Below, one piece after another: positions 3,423 through 63,679 of a stretch of 64,000 bases of DNA. The notes under the pieces were generated by a model that saw nothing but the letters and a program-made list of their open reading frames with translations, was not told the DNA's origin and searched no databases. The DNA is from Arcobacter sp. (GTDB lineage: Bacteria; Campylobacterota; Campylobacteria; Campylobacterales; Arcobacteraceae): assembly GCA_002869535.1 (NCBI GenBank), contig PKUK01000008.1, positions 664,351-728,350 of the forward strand, read 5' to 3'. Position 1 is the first letter of the stretch. Each line of letters starts with the position of its first letter. A program made the position numbers and the translations under genes.

Positions 3423-4439
3423 ATGAAATTACTAAAGACGCTATCTCTAAGTGTTGCTGCTATTGCACTTGCAACAACTGTATCATCTGCTGATACATTA
3501 GAAACAACAATGAAAAATGGTAAATTAAGCTGTGGACTAAATACAGGTCTACCAGGATTTGCATCTCCTGACTAATCTGGAGTTTGGAAAGGATTAGATG
3601 TTGATATTTGTAAAGCTGTTGCAGCTGCTGTTTTAGGTGATGCATCAAAAGTTAAATATTCTCATTTAAATGCAAAAGAGAGATTTACGGCATTACAAAG
3701 TGGTGAAATTGATGTATTAGCAAGAAACACAACTTGGACTGCAACTAGAGATACTTCATTAGGTTTAAACTTTACAGGTGTGAACTATTATGATGGTCAA
3801 GGTTTCTTAGTTTCAAAAAAACTTGGTGTTAAATCAGCTAAAGAATTAAGTGGAGCAACTTTTTGTATTCAAGCAGGAACTACTACTGAACTTAACTTAA
3901 CTGATTATTTCAAAGCTAATAAAATGGAATATACTCCTATTACTTATGATACTTCTGCACAATCAATTGAAGGTTTTGAAGCTGGTAGATGTGATGCTTT
4001 AACTTCTGATGCATCACAATTATATGGATTAAGAACTACTCTTAAAAATCCAGATTCAGCTATTGTACTTCCTGAAATTATTTCAAAAGAGCCTTTAGGA
4101 CCTGTTGTTAGACAAGGTGATGATGTATGGTTTAATATCGTTAAATGGACTCAAATTGCAATGTTAAATGCTGAAGAATTAGGTGTAAACTCTGCAAATG
4201 TTGATGAAATGTTAGAGAGTAAAAACCCAAATGTTCAAAGATTACTTGGTGTTACTGGTGATATTGGTAAAAACCTTGGATTAGATCCTAAATGGGCATA
4301 CAATGTTATTAAACAAGTTGGTAATTATGGTGAATCATTTGATAGAAATGTTGGAAAAGATTCTCCACTTGGAATTGCTAGAGGATTAAATGCTCTATGG
4401 AAAGATGGTGGGCTTCAATATGGAGCACCTATTAGATAA
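3423..4439 (+). pseudogene. aapJ: General L-amino acid ABC transporter, periplasmic binding protein, interrupted by in-frame TAA
   Basis: Solute-binding protein of a polar amino acid ABC importer. The ATG at 3423 has an AAAGG site upstream and begins a signal peptide ending about SSADTLE. The AapJ-like sequence GLNTGLPGFASPD is followed by TAA at 3573-3575 (codon 51 of 339), and the same frame resumes with SGVWKGLDVDICKAVA and runs to 4439 (338 residues when read through). Conserved stretches after the stop include ERFTALQSGEIDVLARNTTW, FCIQAGTTTE and the closing GLNALWKDGGLQY. A fragment from the next in-frame ATG would lack the signal peptide. The genes for both permeases and the ATPase follow and are intact. 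Confidence 0.88.
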
Positions 4440-12072: not shown

Positions 12073-13365
12073 ATGAAATATGCTTTTTTAAAAGTTTCCA
12101 TTCCAGTTTTACTTCTAATCGTCGCAATGTTTGTCATAACTTCAGAATTTATTCAACCAGCTCCTGAAAAAAAGCTCACCATTGCAACTGGTTCTAAAAA
12201 TGGCAATTATTACAAAGTAGCCCAAGAGTATAAAAAACTTCTAGAAGAAAATAAAATAGAAGTTACTTTAATAAATACAGAAGGTTCAGTTGAAAATATA
12301 CAACTCCTAAAAGACAAAAAAGTAGATATTGCTTTTGTTCAAAATGGAATATTAAACTCAAAAGAAAAAGATATTGAGTTTTTAGCAAATATCTATTATG
12401 AGCCTTTGTGGATATTTTATAAAAATGATAAATATACAATTGATTATCTAATCCAACTAATAAGTAAAAAAATATCAATTGGAGCCCAAGGAAGTGGCAC
12501 TAAAGATTTAGCTACAAAGCTCTTAAATGATAATGGAATTACCAATGAAAATAGCACAATTTTAACTTTAGGAACAGATGAATCTAAAAAAATGCTTTTA
12601 TCTGGAAAAATTGATGCTATGTTTATGGTTACATCCCATGATTCTGCTACAGTAAAAGAGTTACTTGAAAATCCTGATATAAATATACTAAGTATAAAAA
12701 GAGCTAAAGCTTATGGTCAAAAATATGGATTTATGGAAGCTTTAACTCTTCATGAAGGAACACTTGATTTATATAAAAATATTCCAGATGAAAATATAAA
12801 TTTACTCTCAACTAGTGCAAACTTATTAGCAAGACCCGATGTTCCTTCAGAATTAATTAGAATCTTTTTAAAACAAGTAAAAGAAGTGCACAAAGAAGAG
12901 TCTCTTTTTTCTAAAGAAAATCAGTTCCCAAACTTATTAAATACTACTCTTAAAATTAATAAAGAAGCAAAACAATACTTCACAAAAGGTGATACTTGGC
13001 TATAATCAATTTTCCCATATTGGATTGCTTCAAATATTGATAGACTAAAACTTTTATTAATACCTTTGTTAACTTTAATGTTTCCATTATTTAAAGGGGT
13101 ATTCCCTCTGTATCAATGGAGTATGCGTTCAAAAATATTTAGATGGTATAAGATTTTAAATAACATTGACAAACAAATAAACACAGCCACATTTGAAGAG
13201 TTAGAAAAATTTAGTAAAGAACTAAAAGAATTAGATGTAGAGATACAAGAAGAGACAAAAGTTCCCCTGTCATATATGGGTGAATATTATGACTTGATGG
13301 TTCACTTAGAACTAATCCAAAATAAAATTGAAAGTAAGTCAAATCAAATCCAAATCAACTATTAG
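12073..13365 (+). pseudogene. TAXI-family TRAP solute-binding protein with C-terminal membrane segment, interrupted by in-frame TAA
   Basis: Resembles TAXI-type substrate-binding proteins of TRAP transporters. An N-terminal membrane anchor or uncleaved signal (about residues 5-27) is followed by the TAXI-like LTIATGSKNGNYYKVAQEYK and IGAQGSGTKDLATKLL. The TAA at 13003-13005 (codon 311 of 431) interrupts it after KGDTWL; the frame continues with SIFPYWIASNIDRL, a hydrophobic segment (LLLIPLLTLMFPLFKGVFPL) and a charged cytoplasmic tail to 13365, 430 residues in all. No TRAP permease gene lies nearby, so it may be a membrane-tethered binding protein with another role. Truncation would remove the second membrane segment. 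Confidence 0.8.
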
Positions 13366-18127: not shown

Positions 18128-18598
18128 ATGAATTTGATTTTACAAGATATTATTTTAAATGCAATTTTTGCGGCTATCCCTGCGGTTGGTTTTGCCATGC
18201 TATTTAATGTTCCAAAATCAGCATTAAAGTATTGTGCTTTGGGTGGAGCAATTGTTTATACACTAAGAGAAATATTTATGGACTTAAACTTAGCAATAGA
18301 ACTTGCAACTTTTTTAGCCTCAATGATTATAGGATTGATTGCCCTATATTGGTCAAGAAAAAATTTAGTACCAAGACCTATTTATACAGTTGCCTCTATA
18401 ATTCCAATGATTCCAGGTACTTATGCTTTTACTGCAATGATTAGTTTAGTTGATATGAATACACATGGAGTAAGCAGTGAATTAATAGAGATATTTATAG
18501 AAAGTGGATTAAAATAAATCTCAATTTTAGGGGCTATTAGCTTTGGTCTTGCACTCCCATCACTTTATTTTATGAGGTACAAAAGACCAATAGTCTAA
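18128..18598 (+). pseudogene. ThrE-type exporter, C-terminal component (DUF3815), interrupted by in-frame TAA
   Basis: Second half of the split ThrE-type exporter. Hydrophobic segments begin at ILNAIFAAIPAVGFAMLF and continue through the family motif IIPMIPGTYAFTAM. A TAA at 18515-18517 (codon 130 of 157) is followed in frame by ISILGAISFGLALPSLYF and MRYKRP, another membrane helix and positive tail, ending with TAA at 18596-18598. Read through it is 156 residues, normal for the family. As written, the last helix is lost. The stop abuts the convergent mgtE stop without any gap. Confidence 0.83.
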
Positions 18599-19970: not shown

Positions 19971-20606
19971 TTAAATCTTCTTTTTTATCTCTAATTTTTG
20001 AGGTCTTATTGTTATATCTGTAATAACTCCATTAAAAACAATGATATCTAAAATACTTTTGGCAATATCTTCAGCTATCAAGTGAGAGTTTTTACTATCT
20101 CCTGGTTAAAAATTAAAATCATCGAAAAAATTTGTTTTAGTTAGGTCTGGATTTACGGTTGTAACTTTTACATCACTTCGCCTAAGTTCTTCAAATAAAG
20201 CTAAACCAAAACTTCTAAGTCCTGATTTAGTAGCTGTATAAAGAGCTGAAAACTTAGAGTGCCGTGTAGCTTCCACCGAAGCTATATTGATAATATGACC
20301 CTTAGTCTTTTTTAAACTTCTAAGAAGTAAATTTGATATAATAATTGGTGCTGTTAAATTTACATCAATTACCTCTTTTATCTTAGATAAAGAGATCTCT
20401 TCATGGGGCTTAAAAACACCTAGACCTGCACAATTAACCAAAACATTTATATCACTTGTTTTAAGTAATAACTTTACTTCTTTTTCTAAAGAGTCTAAAT
20501 CATTTAGTCTAGCTTTTAATTTAATTATTTCAAAACCATTACTTTCTAAAATATCAGAAATTGCTTTACCAATACCTGAACTATATCCTGTAACTATTGC
20601 TTTCAT
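19971..20606 (-). pseudogene. Short-chain dehydrogenase/reductase, interrupted by in-frame TAA
   Basis: NAD(P)-dependent SDR of unknown substrate. The N-terminus [16 protein letters not shown] contains the TGxxxGIG cofactor motif, followed by NVLVNCAGLGVF (NxAG), the catalytic serine region IINIASVEA and the Tyr-x3-Lys motif in YTATKSGLRSF. After FFDDFNF a TAA at 20108-20106 (codon 167 of 212) interrupts the frame, which continues with PGDSKNSHLIAEDIAKSIL to a TAA at 19971, one base before mgtE. Read through it is 211 residues. The catalytic core precedes the stop, but the substrate-binding tail would be lost. Its ATG overlaps the dedA stop by four bases. Confidence 0.82.
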
Positions 20607-22024: not shown

Positions 22025-22764
22025 CCGCAACTCTTTTTTGTACCTAATAATTGAAGCATCTCAACTTCACAAAAGTGCATATCATCATTTGGAATATTTT
22101 CTTGCTTATGAGAAATATCATGAAAAGTTAATTTTTTATTTATGTGAGCTACTTTTGTTGCATAGCCTAAAATAACAGAAATATCGTGACTAACTACTAC
22201 AATGGTAATTGACTTATTCAAAAGTTTTAATAAATCATAAATTTGTTTTTGTCCATCAACATCAATACTAGCTGTTGGTTCATCTAGAAGTAAGATTTTT
22301 GGATGTGCGCATAAAGCCCGTGCTATCATTACTCTTTGACGTTGACCACCTGAAAGTGTCCCTATTTTTACATTGGCAAAATCTTGCATGCCAACTTGCT
22401 CTAGGGCACCCATTGCACAAGCTATCTCTTCTTTTTTATATCCTATTAGTGGACGTTTGTGCCCAACATGTCCCATCATAACTACTTCTATTACTTTGAT
22501 AGGGAAATTTATATTTACATTTGTATTTTGAGGAACATATCCTATTGCTTAAATATTCTTTTCAACTTTTGAGCCAAGGAGTTTTATTTTTCCTTTTTTA
22601 ACTTTGTTTATTCCTAAAATAGTTTTTAATAAAGTTGATTTACCTCCACCATTAGGTCCAATGATTGCTAAAAAATCATTCTCTTGAATTGTCAAACTAA
22701 TATCTTCAAGAATAATTTGTTTATCATATGCAAAGGTTAATTTCTCTATTTCAAGTATATTCAT
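22018..22764 (-). pseudogene. znuC: Zinc/manganese-type ABC transporter ATP-binding protein, interrupted by in-frame TAA
   Basis: ATPase partner of the znuB permease. Walker A (GPNGGGKSTLL) is in the first segment; a TAA at 22551-22549 (codon 72 of 249) interrupts it after LLGSKVEKNI, and the frame continues with the Q-loop strand AIGYVPQN, signature [15 protein letters not shown], Walker [13 protein letters not shown] and switch histidine VVSHD. Read through it is 248 residues with no frameshift. As written neither fragment could hydrolyse ATP. The C-terminal tail ends in a Cys-rich KKSCGC, which could bind metal. Confidence 0.88.
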
Positions 22765-41264: not shown

Positions 41265-41928
41265 AAAAGCTATTTGTATATTAAGTGGAGGAATGGATTC
41301 CACACTTGCTTCATATATTGCTAAAAATGAAGGCTATGAAATTATTGCTATTCATTTTAATTATGGGCAAAGAACACAAAATAGAGAATTAAAAGCATTT
41401 AGGGATGTATGTGAAAGTTTAAAGGTTAAAAATAAATATGAAATTGATATACCATTTTTCACACAAATTGGAGCAAGTGCTTTAACTGATGCAAATATTG
41501 ATGTTCCAGTTGATGGAGTTAAACCTGGTGTTCCAATTACCTATGTGCCATTTAGAAATGGTATTTTTCTTTCTATTGCAGCTGCAGTTGCTTAAAAAGA
41601 GAATGCAGAAGCTATGTATATTGGAGTTGTAGAAGAGGATAGTAGCGGATATCCTGATTGTACAGATTCATTTATAAATCAAATTAAAAATGCAATCAAT
41701 GAAGGTACAAGAGAATCAACACATATTAATATCAAAACTCCTTTAGTAAAACTTCACAAAAATGAAATTGTGAAAAAAGCACTTGAATTAAATGTTCCAC
41801 TAGAGCTTACTTGGTCATGTTATAAAGAAGAGAATGAAGCTTGTGGTGTTTGTGATTCTTGTAGATTAAGATTAAATGGATTTGCCCAAGCAAATTCAAA
41901 AGATCCAATACCATACAAAGGTTCTTGA
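41257..41928 (+). pseudogene. queC: 7-cyano-7-deazaguanine synthase QueC, interrupted by in-frame TAA
   Basis: Makes preQ0 in queuosine synthesis, with ATP and ammonia. The PP-loop SGGMDSTL is near the N-terminus, followed by HFNYGQRTQNRELKAF. A TAA at 41593-41595 (codon 113 of 224), after VPFRNGIFLSIAAAVA, is followed in frame by [21 protein letters not shown] and the zinc-site cysteines ([16 protein letters not shown]). Read through it is 223 residues, normal for QueC. Neither half alone would be active. The gene overlaps moeA by eight bases and its TGA shares a base with queD, showing an intact operon. Confidence 0.9.
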
Positions 41929-50472: not shown

Positions 50473-51753
50473 ATGCAAAGTTTTAGCATAGATGCTTTAA
50501 GTAAGCCATTTGACATAGTAATTGATAATATTGCAAGTGATAAATCAATCTCCCACAGATGTGCAATGTTTTCATTACTAAGTAATGAAACATCACACAT
50601 CAAGAACTTCTTAACAGCAGAAGATACATTAAACACTCTTTCAATAGTTGAACAATTAGGTGCAACTATACAAAGAGATGGCTCAACTGTTACTATTACA
50701 CCAAAAGAATTCCTAAGTGAACCAGCTAACGTTTTAGATTGTGGAAATTCTGGAACAGCCATGAGACTTTTTTGTGGTTTTTTAGCTTCTATTGATGGAG
50801 CTTTTACCCTTGTAGGAGATAAATATCTTCACTCAAGACCCATGAAAAGAGTTGCAGACCCACTTAGAAGTATTGGCGCTAAAATTGATGGTAGAGAAGA
50901 TGGAAATAAAGCACCACTTTTTATAAGAGGTGTAAAAAAATTAGAAGCTTTTACTTACCACTCACCTGTTGATTCTGCGCAAGTAAAATCAGCTATGATT
51001 CTAGCAGCGCTAAGGGCTAATGGCATTTCAAAATATAAAGAGAATGAACTAACACGAGATCATACAGAGAGAATGTTAAGAGGTATGGGTGCAAAATTAG
51101 AAAATGATAGTGAAGGATTTATACATATCCATCCACTAACTTCATCTTTAAAACCTTTAAATATAACAGTACCAACAGATCCTAGTTCTGCATTTTTCTT
51201 TGCTCTTGCAGCAGCAATTACACCAAAGGCAAAAGTAACAATTAAAAATGTAACTTTAAACCCAACTAGAATAGAGGCTTATCAAGTTTTAAAAAGAATG
51301 GGTGCAGATGTTGAGTTTATTGAAAAAGAAAATGTATATGAGCCAATAGGAGACATTGTAGTAGCCAATAAAGAATTAAATGGTGTAGATGTTAGCGAAA
51401 ACATTTCATGGCTTATAGATGAGCTCCCTGCACTTAGTATTGCTATGAGTTTAGCAAATGGAAAATCAAAAGTATCAAATGCAAAAGAGTTAAGAGTAAA
51501 AGAGAGTGATAGAATAAGCTCAGTTGTAAATAACTTAAAGCTTTGTGGTGTAAATTATACAGAGTTTGAAGATGGTTATGAAATAACTGGTGGAAAACTT
51601 CAAAAAGCTGTAATTAACTCCCATGGAGATCACAGAATTGCAATGAGTTTCGCAATTGCTGGATTAAATTCAGGTATGGAAATAGAAGATGTTGATTGTA
51701 TATTAACTTCTTTTCCAAACTTTAAAGAGATATTAGATACTTTAAAAAATTAA
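50473..51753 (+). CDS. aroA: 3-phosphoshikimate 1-carboxyvinyltransferase (EPSP synthase)
   Basis: Sixth step of the shikimate pathway. The 426-residue protein includes the substrate loops [62 protein letters not shown] and [15 protein letters not shown], plus [14 protein letters not shown] and [15 protein letters not shown]. The start directly follows the pheT stop. The [11 protein letters not shown] phosphoenolpyruvate site, with Gly and no Ala before the Thr-Ala segment, resembles glyphosate-sensitive class I enzymes. This is a family comparison only. Confidence 0.96.
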
Positions 51754-51873: not shown

Positions 51874-52707
51874 ATGAAAGTAAAATTAGCATCATCTTAT
51901 GGGTTTTGTTTTGGAGTAAAAAGAGCTATAAAGATTGCTTAGGAGTATAAAAACTCTGCAACAATGGGACCTCTTATTCATAATACAAATGAAATAGATA
52001 GGCTTAAAAATGATTATAATGTAGGATTATATACCTCTTTAGATGAAGTAAAAGATAATGATACAATCATTATTAGAACCCATGGTATTCCAAAATTTGA
52101 TTTAAAAAACCTAAAAGCAAAAGATGCAAAAGTTATCAATGCCACATGTCCTTTTGTGACAACTCCTCAGCAAATAGTTAAAAAAATGTCCCAAGAGCAA
52201 TACTCAATTGTAATTTTTGGAGATGAAGACCATCCTGAAGTTTTAGGTGTTCAATCTTATGCAAAAGATCAAGATGATGTTTTTGTAATACTAGAACCTA
52301 GTGATTTGGATAAAATAACTTTTAAATACTCAAAAATAGCAACCATTGCTCAAACAACTAAGAAAAAAGAGAAATATCTTGAAATTGTAAACACTTTGAT
52401 TTTAAAAAATAAAGAAGTAAGAGTATTTAATACAATTTGTGATGCAACTTTTGAAAATCAAGATGCAGCAAGAGAGTTATCAAAAGAAGTAGATATTATG
52501 ATTGTAATTGGAGGTAAAAACTCCTCAAATACAAAACAACTTCTTAGTATTGCTCAAGAGAATTGTAAAGATAGTTTTCTCTTAGAAGATGAGAGAGAAT
52601 TGGAAGCTTCATGGTTCAAAAATAAAAAACTTTGCGGTATAACAGCCGGTGCATCGACTCCTGATTGGGTTATACAAAAAGTTGTAGACCAAATAGAAAG
52701 ATATTAA
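51874..52707 (+). pseudogene. ispH: 4-hydroxy-3-methylbut-2-enyl diphosphate reductase, interrupted by in-frame TAG
   Basis: Last enzyme of the MEP isoprenoid pathway, with a 4Fe-4S cluster. The ATG at 51874 follows AAGGAC. After VKLASSYGFCFGVKRAIKIA a TAG at 51940-51942 (codon 23 of 278) interrupts it; the frame continues EYKNSATMGPLIHNTNEIDR with cysteines in ATCPFVT and NTICDATFENQ. Read through it is 277 residues, normal. IspH proteins of this group have Glu-Glu here (AIKIAEE), so GAG to TAG fits. Translation starting downstream would lose the first cluster cysteine. The gene is normally essential in this lineage. Confidence 0.92.
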
Positions 52708-52750: not shown

Positions 52751-52789
52751 CATCGCATTTTATAAATAATGGTTATACAAAGGAAAAAT

Positions 52790-54442
52790 ATGGGTATCGA
52801 AGATATTGAAATTGGTGAAGACTTTGACTTTGAGCAAATGCTTAATGAGTCTTTCGAAAATGCAGAGAACAACTCTGTAGTTGATGGTGTTATTGTTGAG
52901 ATTTCTGGTGAAAATGTTTCTGTAGATGTTGGTCAAAAAGTTGAAGGAAGACTACATATTTCTGAAATCACTATTGGTGGTGAAGTTAAGTATAAAGTGG
53001 GAGACACGCTTCCTGTTATACTAATGGGTACTAGAGGTGAAAAACCTTCTATCTCACATAAGAAAGTTTTACAAAAAGAAAAATTTGATGCTTTTGTTAA
53101 AGAACATACTGAAGATTTAGAAAATGTTACTATTGAGGGTAAAATTATCTCTATTAAACCAAGAGGTGGATTTATAATTGAAGATGACAATGGCTGTGAA
53201 TACTTCATGCCAATGGCACAATCATACTTAAAAGCTCAAGGTGCACTTGGTAAAAAAGTTAAAGCAAAAGTTCTTAAAATAAATGAAGCTCAAAGCTCTA
53301 TTATAGTTTCTAGAAAAAAACTTATTGAAGAATCTAAATTAGAAAAAGATGCAAAAGTTGCTCAATTTCTAGAAAATGATGGTCCAATCAATGGAACAAT
53401 CAAAAAAATCACATCTTATGGAATGTTTGTTGATTTAGGTGGAATTGATGGTTTAGTAAACTACAATGAAATCTCATACAAAGGTCCAGTAAATCCATCT
53501 AATTATTATGCTGAAGGTGATGAAGTTACTGTTAAAGTTCTATCTTATGATAAAACTAAACAACACTTATCATTATCTGTTAAAGCTGCTCTTGCTAACC
53601 CTTGGGAAGAGATCAGAGACGAATTAGAAGTTGGTGATACAATTACTGTAACTATCTCTAATTTTGAATCATATGGTGCATTTGTTGACTTAGGAAATGA
53701 TATTGAAGGTTTATTACATATTTCTGAAATTTCATGGAATAAAAATCTTAAAAATCCAAAAGATCTTTTAACATTAGGTGATGAAGTTAATGTTGAAGTT
53801 ATTGAATTAGACGTTGATAAAAAAAGATTAAGAGTATCTTTAAAAAATCTTCAAGAGAAACCTTTTGCAAAATTTACAAAAGAGCATAAAGTAGGAGATA
53901 TCGTTACTGGTAAAGTAGCAACATTAACTGAATTTGGTGCATTTGTTACTTTAGGTGATGTTGATGGTTTATTACATAATGAAGAAGCTTCTTGGGAAGG
54001 TAATGCAAAATGTAAAAACCTTTACAAAAAAGGTGATGAACTTGAAGTTAAAATTATCAAAATTGATAGAGAAAAAGAGAATATTTCATTATCAATCAAA
54101 GATATTACAGATTCTCCTGCTAAAAAATTCCAATCAACTCACAAAATTGGTGATATTGTAAAAGGAACAATTAAAGATCTTAAAGATTTCGGATTATTCA
54201 TTAAAATTGAAGATAATTTAGATGGATTAGTTAGAAATGAAGATTTTGGTCCTTTAACACCAGAAGATGTAGAAGTTGGTAAAGAGATTGAAGCTGTTGT
54301 TGTGAATATTGATACAAATAGAAATAGAGTTAGATTATCAATCAAAAGATTAGAGCAACAACAAGAGAGAGAAATCCTAAAATCTGTTAATGATGATTCA
54401 TCTATGACTTTAGGTGACTTATTAAAAGACCAAATGAAATAA
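52790..54442 (+). CDS. rpsA: Ribosomal protein S1
   Basis: mRNA-binding protein of the small subunit. 550 residues from the ATG at 52790, which follows AAAGGAAAAAT; an upstream ATG at 52769 gives a non-homologous extension. About six S1 domains are visible, each with the pattern VGDIVTGKV...GAFVxLG...GLLHxxExSW (for example FESYGAFVDLGNDIEGLLHI and TEFGAFVTLGDVDGLL). Length matches other Campylobacterota S1 proteins (about 550). serA follows after 17 bases. Confidence 0.96.
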   Translation: MGIEDIEIGEDFDFEQMLNESFENAENNSVVDGVIVEISGENVSVDVGQKVEGRLHISEITIGGEVKYKVGDTLPVILMGTRGEKPSISHKKVLQKEKFDAFVKEHTEDLENVTIEGKIISIKPRGGFIIEDDNGCEYFMPMAQSYLKAQGALGKKVKAKVLKINEAQSSIIVSRKKLIEESKLEKDAKVAQFLENDGPINGTIKKITSYGMFVDLGGIDGLVNYNEISYKGPVNPSNYYAEGDEVTVKVLSYDKTKQHLSLSVKAALANPWEEIRDELEVGDTITVTISNFESYGAFVDLGNDIEGLLHISEISWNKNLKNPKDLLTLGDEVNVEVIELDVDKKRLRVSLKNLQEKPFAKFTKEHKVGDIVTGKVATLTEFGAFVTLGDVDGLLHNEEASWEGNAKCKNLYKKGDELEVKIIKIDREKENISLSIKDITDSPAKKFQSTHKIGDIVKGTIKDLKDFGLFIKIEDNLDGLVRNEDFGPLTPEDVEVGKEIEAVVVNIDTNRNRVRLSIKRLEQQQEREILKSVNDDSSMTLGDLLKDQMK

Positions 54443-61018: not shown

Positions 61019-63679
61019 TTATAGGTCTATTTGTACTTTCTCTTCAATTTGAATAAATGTTTCGATGAAATCTCCAACTTTTATATCATTGAATTTTTCA
61101 AACATGATACCACATTCAAATCCATTAACAACTTCTTTAGCATCATCTTTGAATCTTTTAAGTGATGATATTTTACCTGTATATGTAACAACACCATCTC
61201 TAATAATTCTAGCATGTCCACCTTTGATAACTTTACCATCAGTAACTAAACATCCAGCAACTGTTCCAATTTTTGGTACAACAAATGTATCTCTTACTTC
61301 TGCTTGACCTGTATTTTCTTCTCTAATTACTGCACTCATCATACCAGATAGTGTTGCTTTAATATCATCAATTAAGTCATATATAATTGTATAAGTGTTA
61401 ATAGTGATTCCATCAGCTTTAGCTTTTTGTTTAATAGAACCAGTTGGTCTTACATTAAACCCTAAGATAACACAACCTTCACTAGCTCCTGCAAGAACTA
61501 AATCAGACTCAGTAATACCACCAACACCTGTGTGTAAAACTTTAACTTTTACTTCATCATTTTGAATTTTTTCTAGTGAACCTTTAATTGCTTCTAAAGA
61601 ACCTGCAACATCAGTTTTGATAATCACTGGTAATTGTTTGATTTTTCCTTCTGCAATTAATCCACTCATCTCTTCTAATGATACTTTTGTAGATTTAGAC
61701 AACTCTTTTGCACGTGCATGTTCTGCTCTAGTAGTTGCAATTTCTCTTGCTTCTTTTTCACTATCTTGCACAATCATTACAGAACCAGATGTAGGAATAT
61801 CATTTAATCCAAGTACATTTCCAGTTTCAGAAAGTTCTAATTGTTTTACAGGTTTACCCATGTCATTTGTAATTGCTTTTACTCTACCATATGTAGTATC
61901 ACTTACAATATTATCACCAACTCTTAATGTACCACTTTGTACGATTACTGTAGCAACTGGTCCTCTACCTTTTTCAAGTGTAGCTTCTACAACTGTAGCT
62001 TTTGCTTTAGAAGTTGGATCTGCTTGTAGTTCTAATATTTCTGCTTGAATTAAAATGTTTTCAAGTAAATCATCAATACCTTCACCTGTATGAGCTGAAA
62101 CACCGATAAATTCGATCTCTCCACCCCAATCAACGGGAAGCATATCTTTTTCTGCCATTTGTGATTTAACCATATCAGGATTTGCAGTCTCTTTATCCAT
62201 TTTATTCATAGCAACAATGATTGGACAACCACTTGCTTTTGCATGTGCAATTACTTCTTCTGTTTGTGGTTTAACGCCATCATCAGCAGCAACAACTATA
62301 ATAATAACATCAGTTACACTTGCACCTCTTGATCTCATTTCACTAAAGGCAGCATGTCCTGGAGTATCTACAAAAGTGATTTTTTTACCACTTTGTTCTA
62401 CTGTATATGCAGAGATATGTTGAGTAATTCCACCAGCTTCACCTTTTGCTACTTTTGCACTTCTAATTTTATCTAATAATGAAGTTTTACCATGGTCAAC
62501 ATGACCCATGATTGTTACAACAGGAGGTCTTGTTACGAAGTTTGATTTATCAATATTTTCTTCATGATCTTCCACATAATTTACATCTTCTAAAGCATCT
62601 TTAACAGTTACTTCAATACCAAACTCTTCACCAAGAATTTCTAACTCATCTTGTTTTAAGAAGTCATTTTTTGTAACCATCATTCCTAAAGAAAATAGTA
62701 CAGTAATTACTTCTGAAGCACTTTTTCCACAAGCTTCTGCAAACTCATAAACCCTAACATCTTCAGGTATTGTGATTTCAGTTACATCTGCAACTTCTAC
62801 TTCTCTTTTAATTCTTTTCTTTCTTCTACCTCTTTTTAAACCTTGAGGTCTATTTCCAAAAGCTGCAGGTTTTGAACTTCTTGTTTGTTTATCATTATTA
62901 TTTTTTGCAGGTTTATGTGGATCATCAAAAAGTTTTGATGTATCAGTTAAACCCATATCAAGTAATACGACTTCTTCACCCAATAATGAATCATCAGACT
63001 CTTTAAAATCTTGTTTATCTATTTCTAAAACTTTTCCATGCTCATGTGCTTTTGGAGGTGTTTTTTTCTTTTGAACTTTTGCTTTTGTTTTAACAGGTTC
63101 AGATTGATTATCTTGATTATTATTTCCACCAAGAATTTCACTTAAAGATTTCATAGGTTTTTTAACAGTTGATGGTTCTGAATAAGAAGTTAATTCTTCT
63201 TTTTTTACTACTTTTGGTTCTTCTGGTCTTTTCTTTTTAACAATTTTAATACCTCTTCTTTTAGGTATAACTTTTTTAACAGGTGAATCATCATTAACTT
63301 TTTGAGTATCATCAGTTTTTACAGGGCTAGTATTTTCAATTTTTTTAGGTTCTTCAATTACTGGCTTTTTTTCTTCTTTTGGTTTTTCAACCTCAGTTGT
63401 TTTTGCAATAATTTATTCTTCTGGCTTTTTGTCTTCAACTACTACTTTCTCTTCTTCAACTTTTTTAGGTTCTACACTCTTAGTTGCTTTTTTCTTTGGT
63501 GGAAGTTTTTTACTTTTACCAGTCATTATATAGTTTACTATCTCTTCTGCGTCCTCAACTGTTGTTTGACTTTGAGGTGATTTAAGTTCTATACCTAAAT
63601 CCTTTGCTTTTTTTATAACATCGTTGCTGCTAGCCCCAGCCTCTTCTGCAATTTCATATACTCTTACGTTATCTGACAT
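61019..63679 (-). pseudogene. infB: Translation initiation factor IF-2, interrupted by in-frame TAA
   Basis: GTPase that places initiator tRNA on the ribosome. Read through it has 886 residues: an N-terminal IF2N domain (VRVYEIAEEAGASSNDVIKK), a Lys/Glu/Pro-rich linker, a second IF2N domain (VRVYEFAEACGKSASEVI), G motifs GHVDHGKTS and FVDTPGHAAFSEM, NKMDKE, and C-terminal domains. A TAA at 63415-63413 (codon 89 of 887) falls in the low-complexity linker after DKKPEE and resumes with IIAKTTEVEKPKEEKK. A 711-residue internal segment from ATG 63154 retains all GTPase domains but has no clear ribosome-binding site. Confidence 0.93.

Follow-up and report, generated by a model that had tools for sequence, protein, structure and literature searches.

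The ispH frame and its internal stop

The ispH gene of this Arcobacter genome record raises the question of how a gene for an essential step can carry a stop codon close to its start. The original prediction, made for a window of 64,000 nucleotides (the whole stretch of DNA that was analysed), placed a TAG at codon 23, past the codon for the first cluster cysteine, and proposed that an essential pathway step would be abolished unless TAG was read through or the base was wrong. The recorded sequence bears out both the stop and its position, and the locus is arranged as follows.

50473-51753: aroA, upstream of ispH
51874-52707, + strand: ispH frame of 277 codons, with one internal TAG (codon 23) and a normal terminal TAA
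51940-51942, + strand: the in-frame TAG, ispH codon 23, with a T directly 5' of it; GAA (Glu) in both congeners
51964-52707, + strand: longest open part past the TAG, 247 amino acids from an ATG, without the first cluster cysteine
52769-54442: rpsA, downstream of ispH

The frame is full length with a single stop, and the part after the stop is 92% identical to each of the two congeners (G001 and G002), so that, judged from the sequence, it is not a product of chance. With the IspH equivalog model NF002187 this part reaches 297.9 bits, above the cut-off of 276. When the post-stop part was searched against 60 genomes an ispH match was obtained in all 60, and codon 23 was read at 30 loci (that of the window's genome and 29 relatives), where it is GAA in 16, CAA in 7, GAG in 5, AGT in 1 and TAG in 1. 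All 29 relatives have a sense codon at this position. The simplest route to the TAG would be from the Glu codon GAG by a G>T change after T.

The cysteine of the FCFGVKRA motif is codon 12, 5' of the TAG, and the next ATG is codon 31 (51964), 3' of it; any downstream start would lose this residue, as had been claimed. The first of the three cluster cysteines is not retained in any uninterrupted IspH frame here. In the available text of PMC8837944, three conserved IspH cysteines are described as binding a [4Fe-4S] cluster, and lytB/ispH as essential in E. coli and Synechocystis. Reinitiation at the codon-31 ATG was considered and rejected, the product losing the first cluster cysteine together with the start of the first domain. 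An AGGAG at 51941-51945 was also set aside as a ribosome binding site for this ATG, since it lies 18 bases upstream and was judged too distant. A literature search on IspH cysteine mutants found no paper.

Two escape routes that had been proposed as checks, a second ispH and a TAG-suppressing tRNA, both gave negative results. The genome record contains one ispH match and none beside it, and a CUA anticodon is present in none of the 46 tRNA genes found with a covariance model, all of which were named by ARAGORN. HMG-CoA reductase, which would indicate a mevalonate route, had no match in the window's genome in a search that was positive in 5 of 14 control genomes. Because of these three results the ispH allele as written should be non-working and lethal, and to this extent the predicted loss of an essential step stands. 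The RF1 gene (prfA, contig C10) scores above its cut-off and has no internal stop.

Some tRNA genes lie outside the assembly, as tRNA-Ala and tRNA-Ile(GAU) are absent from the 46 found. The sole 16S gene is located at a contig end (C7:277306-278706), and contigs C1, C4 and C8 each have a tRNA-Thr gene some 200 bases from an end. These features together suggest that the rRNA operons were probably collapsed, as in short-read assemblies, and a tRNA gene may be located in a gap.

Premature stops in the sampled parts of the genome record

The attention given to ispH and TAG was directed at a gene that is interrupted in the recorded sequence, but the pattern extends through the sampled parts of the record and includes rpoB. 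A sample of 580 kb, made up of stretches of contigs C5 (400 kb) and C8 (180 kb) and representing 22% of the 2,683,134-base record, was compared with congener G001 using non-overlapping longest frames. With thresholds of at least 75% identity and 60% cover, and with stops counted only between codon 20 and 95% of the length, 289 genes (99,764 codons) could be aligned, and 29 of them contain 31 mid-gene stops in all; 25 of these stops are in 23 of 210 genes on C5 and 6 in 6 of 79 genes on C8. The same method applied to G002 against the same G001 genes gave 1 stop in 153 genes (52,267 codons). Counting the stops near the gene ends as well raises the totals to 37 for the window's genome and 4 for the G002 control, the filter having removed 6 of the 37 (3 of 28 on C5 and 3 of 9 on C8) and 3 of the 4. 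A looser run (65% identity, 70% cover) yielded 28 interrupted genes among 234; these included a doubtful frame (q220) that had three stops, and a folB-like frame that was interrupted and whose identity was 67%. In the reverse comparison, where G001 was searched with frames from the window's genome, there were 5 stops in 3 of 214 genes and 2 stops in a single gene of 80, together with one case resembling a frameshift; where one gene holds several stops, its frame may be spurious. A comparison that included antisense frames was set aside, its many multi-stop matches being spurious.

Interrupted genes that could be named include rpoB, ispH, infB, glmS, hemA, prfB, olsF, a MutS-family gene, secF, queC, lipA and rimM (NCBIfam models were run on 25 of the 29, rpoB and ispH were named separately, and frames of 333 and 249 amino acids were excluded). 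Codon 954 of rpoB (C8:321199) is TAA here and GAA (Glu) in all five relatives read, and glmS has two premature TAA codons within one essential gene (C5:532197 and 532875). The prfB gene for RF2 (C5:739072) has a TGA, the codon that RF2 reads, at codon 339 of 364. The MutS-family gene (C5:517638; 987 amino acids in G001) is interrupted at codon 54. Nine of the 31 stops fall in the window, namely that of ispH and the following eight.

1809-1811, + strand: TGA at codon 144 of 158 in a gene without an NCBIfam match at 1e-30; Gly in both congeners
3573-3575, + strand: TAA at codon 51 of 338 in an ABC transporter substrate-binding protein gene; Ser in both congeners
13003-13005, + strand: TAA at codon 314 of 433 in the gene for an unnamed protein; Glu in both congeners
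18515-18517, + strand: TAA at codon 130 of 156 in the gene for a threonine/serine-exporter-like protein; Ser in both congeners
20106-20108, - strand: TAA at codon 167 of 211 in a gene without an NCBIfam match at 1e-30; Glu in both congeners
22549-22551, - strand: TAA at codon 72 of 248 in an ABC transporter ATPase gene; Ser in both congeners
41593-41595, + strand: TAA at codon 113 of 223 in queC; Glu in both congeners
63413-63415, - strand: TAA at codon 90 of 888 (congener protein) in infB (IF-2), where the congener has Glu

The kinds of stop, 23 TAA, 4 TAG and 4 TGA, bear directly on the idea that ispH alone is a real null, rescued by a second IspH, a mevalonate route or a TAG-suppressor tRNA. 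Apart from the missing tRNA-Ala and tRNA-Ile(GAU), which indicate that some tRNA genes are outside the assembly, nothing positive points to such a rescue, and the searches described above and the 27 of 31 stops that are TAA or TGA leave it next to no chance of being correct. Even if an assembly gap concealed such a suppressor, the data would be left unexplained, because all three stop codons are involved and the changes have a G:C>T:A signature (see below). The marks of TAG reassignment are likewise absent, there being no CUA tRNA, no confinement of the stops to TAG and no loss or breakage of RF1. Of the two ways out that the original prediction allowed, a wrong base fits best, and suppression of TAG fails to cover the three stop kinds.

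Genuine gene decay under relaxed selection, for instance in a gene-losing symbiont, would agree with the interruption of about 10% of the aligned genes. However, no frameshift-like case was found in the 289 genes aligned to G001, so the mixture of stops, frameshifts and deletions that marks decay is not seen, and rpoB, infB, glmS and hemA are among the genes affected. The interrupted genes are also still 74.7-96.4% identical to G001 (as listed; the 75% cut-off was by full alignment), and a single class of substitution dominates. Decay is therefore scarcely credible as the source of the stops.

Base changes, sequence context and selection

Of the 31 stops, 21 are one step from the G001 codon, and 19 of these are G:C>T:A and 2 are A:T>T:A changes; about 10 lie more than one base change away. 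No stop arose via C>T, T>G or C>G, despite these classes providing 14,988 of the 49,261 stop opportunities (C>T 4,013, T>G 8,303, C>G 2,672, C>A 12,452 and T>A 21,821). In a three-way comparison, G>T/C>A changes that are radical or create a stop number 28 of 96 on the window's branch, and the two congener branches have 1 of 19 and 1 of 15. The excess of G:C>T:A over the related lineages is that expected of an oxidative (8-oxoG-type) change; 8-oxoguanine pairs with adenine, giving G>T, as stated in the available text of PMC9636213.

The changed G is preceded by a T at 17 of the 19 G>T stops, against a background of 48% (p = 2e-4). Missense changes in the G>T direction show a similar excess, with D>Y at 16 versus 3 in reverse and G>C at 6 versus 0, beside stops at 17 versus 0; this comparison was not polarised by G002, and its direction is taken from the excess. 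A 5' T is present in 31 of these 39 marker cases (16 D>Y, 6 G>C and 17 stops). The preference consequently goes with the base change rather than with the stop codon, and a readthrough context specific to stops was ruled out, as the G>T missense cases share the 5' T. Other codon types show little excess (A>S 163 versus 157, V>F 11 versus 9, V>L 28 versus 30), and the base 3' of the changed G may for this reason also matter. The SBS18 contexts quoted from PMC9270427 are C>A at ACA, CCA, GCA and TCT. The T[G>T]A preference observed here falls outside that quoted list, which has no TCA, the comparison being with the list of contexts. Because of this difference, an 8-oxoG chemistry of the G>T changes is not proven.

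In any growing lineage stops are rarer than radical missense changes. In the window's genome C>A stops occur at 23.8e-4 per opportunity (7 events) and radical C>A missense changes at 24.9e-4 (17 events), the pooled congener controls giving 0 and 2.9e-4, respectively. As the stops are as frequent per opportunity as the radical missense changes, there is no purifying selection on them, and the changes were never tested by growth. The picture is not wholly clean: the window's branch is the longer one, and other radical classes are also raised relative to the pooled controls (T>C 12 versus 2, T>A 22 versus 11, T>G 6 versus 2 and C>T 12 versus 8). Under looser filters 2 T>A stops are seen beside the 7 C>A stops.

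Loss of MutY was examined as a cause. No MutY above the curated cut-off was found in the window's genome, G001 or G002, and one of six genomes, that of a member of the same family (G011), has such a match. MutY loss was rejected, the two congeners being equally without a match and yet having no G>T excess. A literature search combining Arcobacter, MutY and mutation rate found no paper.

A living mutator with a heavy G>T load, whose ribosomes read through premature TAA, TAG and TGA codons but still terminate at true gene ends, perhaps helped by a truncated RF2, would accommodate the early TGA in prfB, the missing MutY match and the lack of depletion of stops relative to radical missense changes. 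Against this, 271 of 275 genes (those aligned to within 2 residues of the congener C-terminus) stop within six codons of that end, which indicates that the stops serve termination, and the terminators are an ordinary mix of 189 TAA, 51 TAG and 31 TGA. The RF1 gene is intact and a CUA tRNA is lacking, the congeners without MutY have no excess, and glmS would require two readthroughs in one protein. Such a mutator is very improbable.

Origin of the changes and comparison with known systems

Under normal termination no living haplotype can have rpoB, infB, glmS, hemA and ispH interrupted together. This, with the lack of selection and the G>T bias, points to a damaged template or sequence error in the consensus. 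We put a probability of about 0.8 on the reading that the ispH TAG belongs to a large set of G:C>T:A changes in the consensus of the record that were free of selection, and that no living lineage has it as a functional allele. Guanines would have been oxidised or otherwise damaged, with 8-oxoguanine pairing with adenine, and the damaged bases would have been copied when a small number of template molecules was amplified or made into a library; alternatively, another sequence error of the same bias may have acted. The resulting G>T changes would then have become fixed in the consensus of the assembly. In the case of ispH, TAG would have been recorded in place of a Glu codon, which follows a T like most of the other changed codons, and the cell that donated the DNA presumably had a sense codon there. 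The ispH TAG is not a recoding, suppression or pathway-loss event.

The state of the assembly counts against such an error. The record has 12 contigs, is 99.96% complete and looks like a contiguous short-read assembly, in which random read errors should be outvoted; the changes must therefore have dominated the template, or coverage was poor. This bears on the possibility that they are true mutations in the sequenced DNA: before sequencing, DNA would have been amplified from one cell or a few cells (non-viable or a subpopulation) in which G>T mutagenesis had occurred in a burst. The clean signature with its context, the absence of indels and of selection, and the presence of the changes at consensus level in a contiguous assembly are all compatible with such an origin. 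It requires an unusual sample, however, and a genome amplified from a single cell is not usually recovered almost whole in 12 contigs, so that we regard it as unlikely. A literature search on stops in assemblies gave no paper with the phrase G to T transversion among the matches listed.

Whether through damage or error, a near-complete public record (99.96%) can hold G>T changes free of selection, with about one in ten sampled genes (29 of 289) interrupted by them, and to claim gene loss, auxotrophy or recoding on the basis of this record would be an error. The present test, which combines the direction of change, its context, the frequency of stops and radical missense changes per opportunity, and congener controls, could flag other such records.

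Compared with known systems, the locus resembles IspH/LytB (NF002187, TIGR00216) in its full-length frame, in the aroA-ispH-rpsA synteny and in the score of the post-stop part above the cut-off, and differs in the one in-frame TAG at codon 23, which is absent from the 29 relatives read. An in-frame TAG in an otherwise intact gene recalls stop-codon reassignment or a suppressor tRNA, but here all three stops are affected and all serve as terminators, no CUA tRNA is found and the RF1 gene is intact. Mutator strains of the mutY/mutM type have a G:C>T:A spectrum, and no MutY match over the cut-off is found here; in contrast to such strains, the congeners that also have no MutY match show no excess, and essential genes are interrupted that selection would keep whole. 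The changes resemble 8-oxoguanine-type damage or a sequencing artefact in the dominance of G:C>T:A, the lack of indels and the lack of selection, and differ from these in being present in the consensus of a contiguous assembly and in a T[G>T] preference distinct from the SBS18 contexts quoted from PMC9270427.
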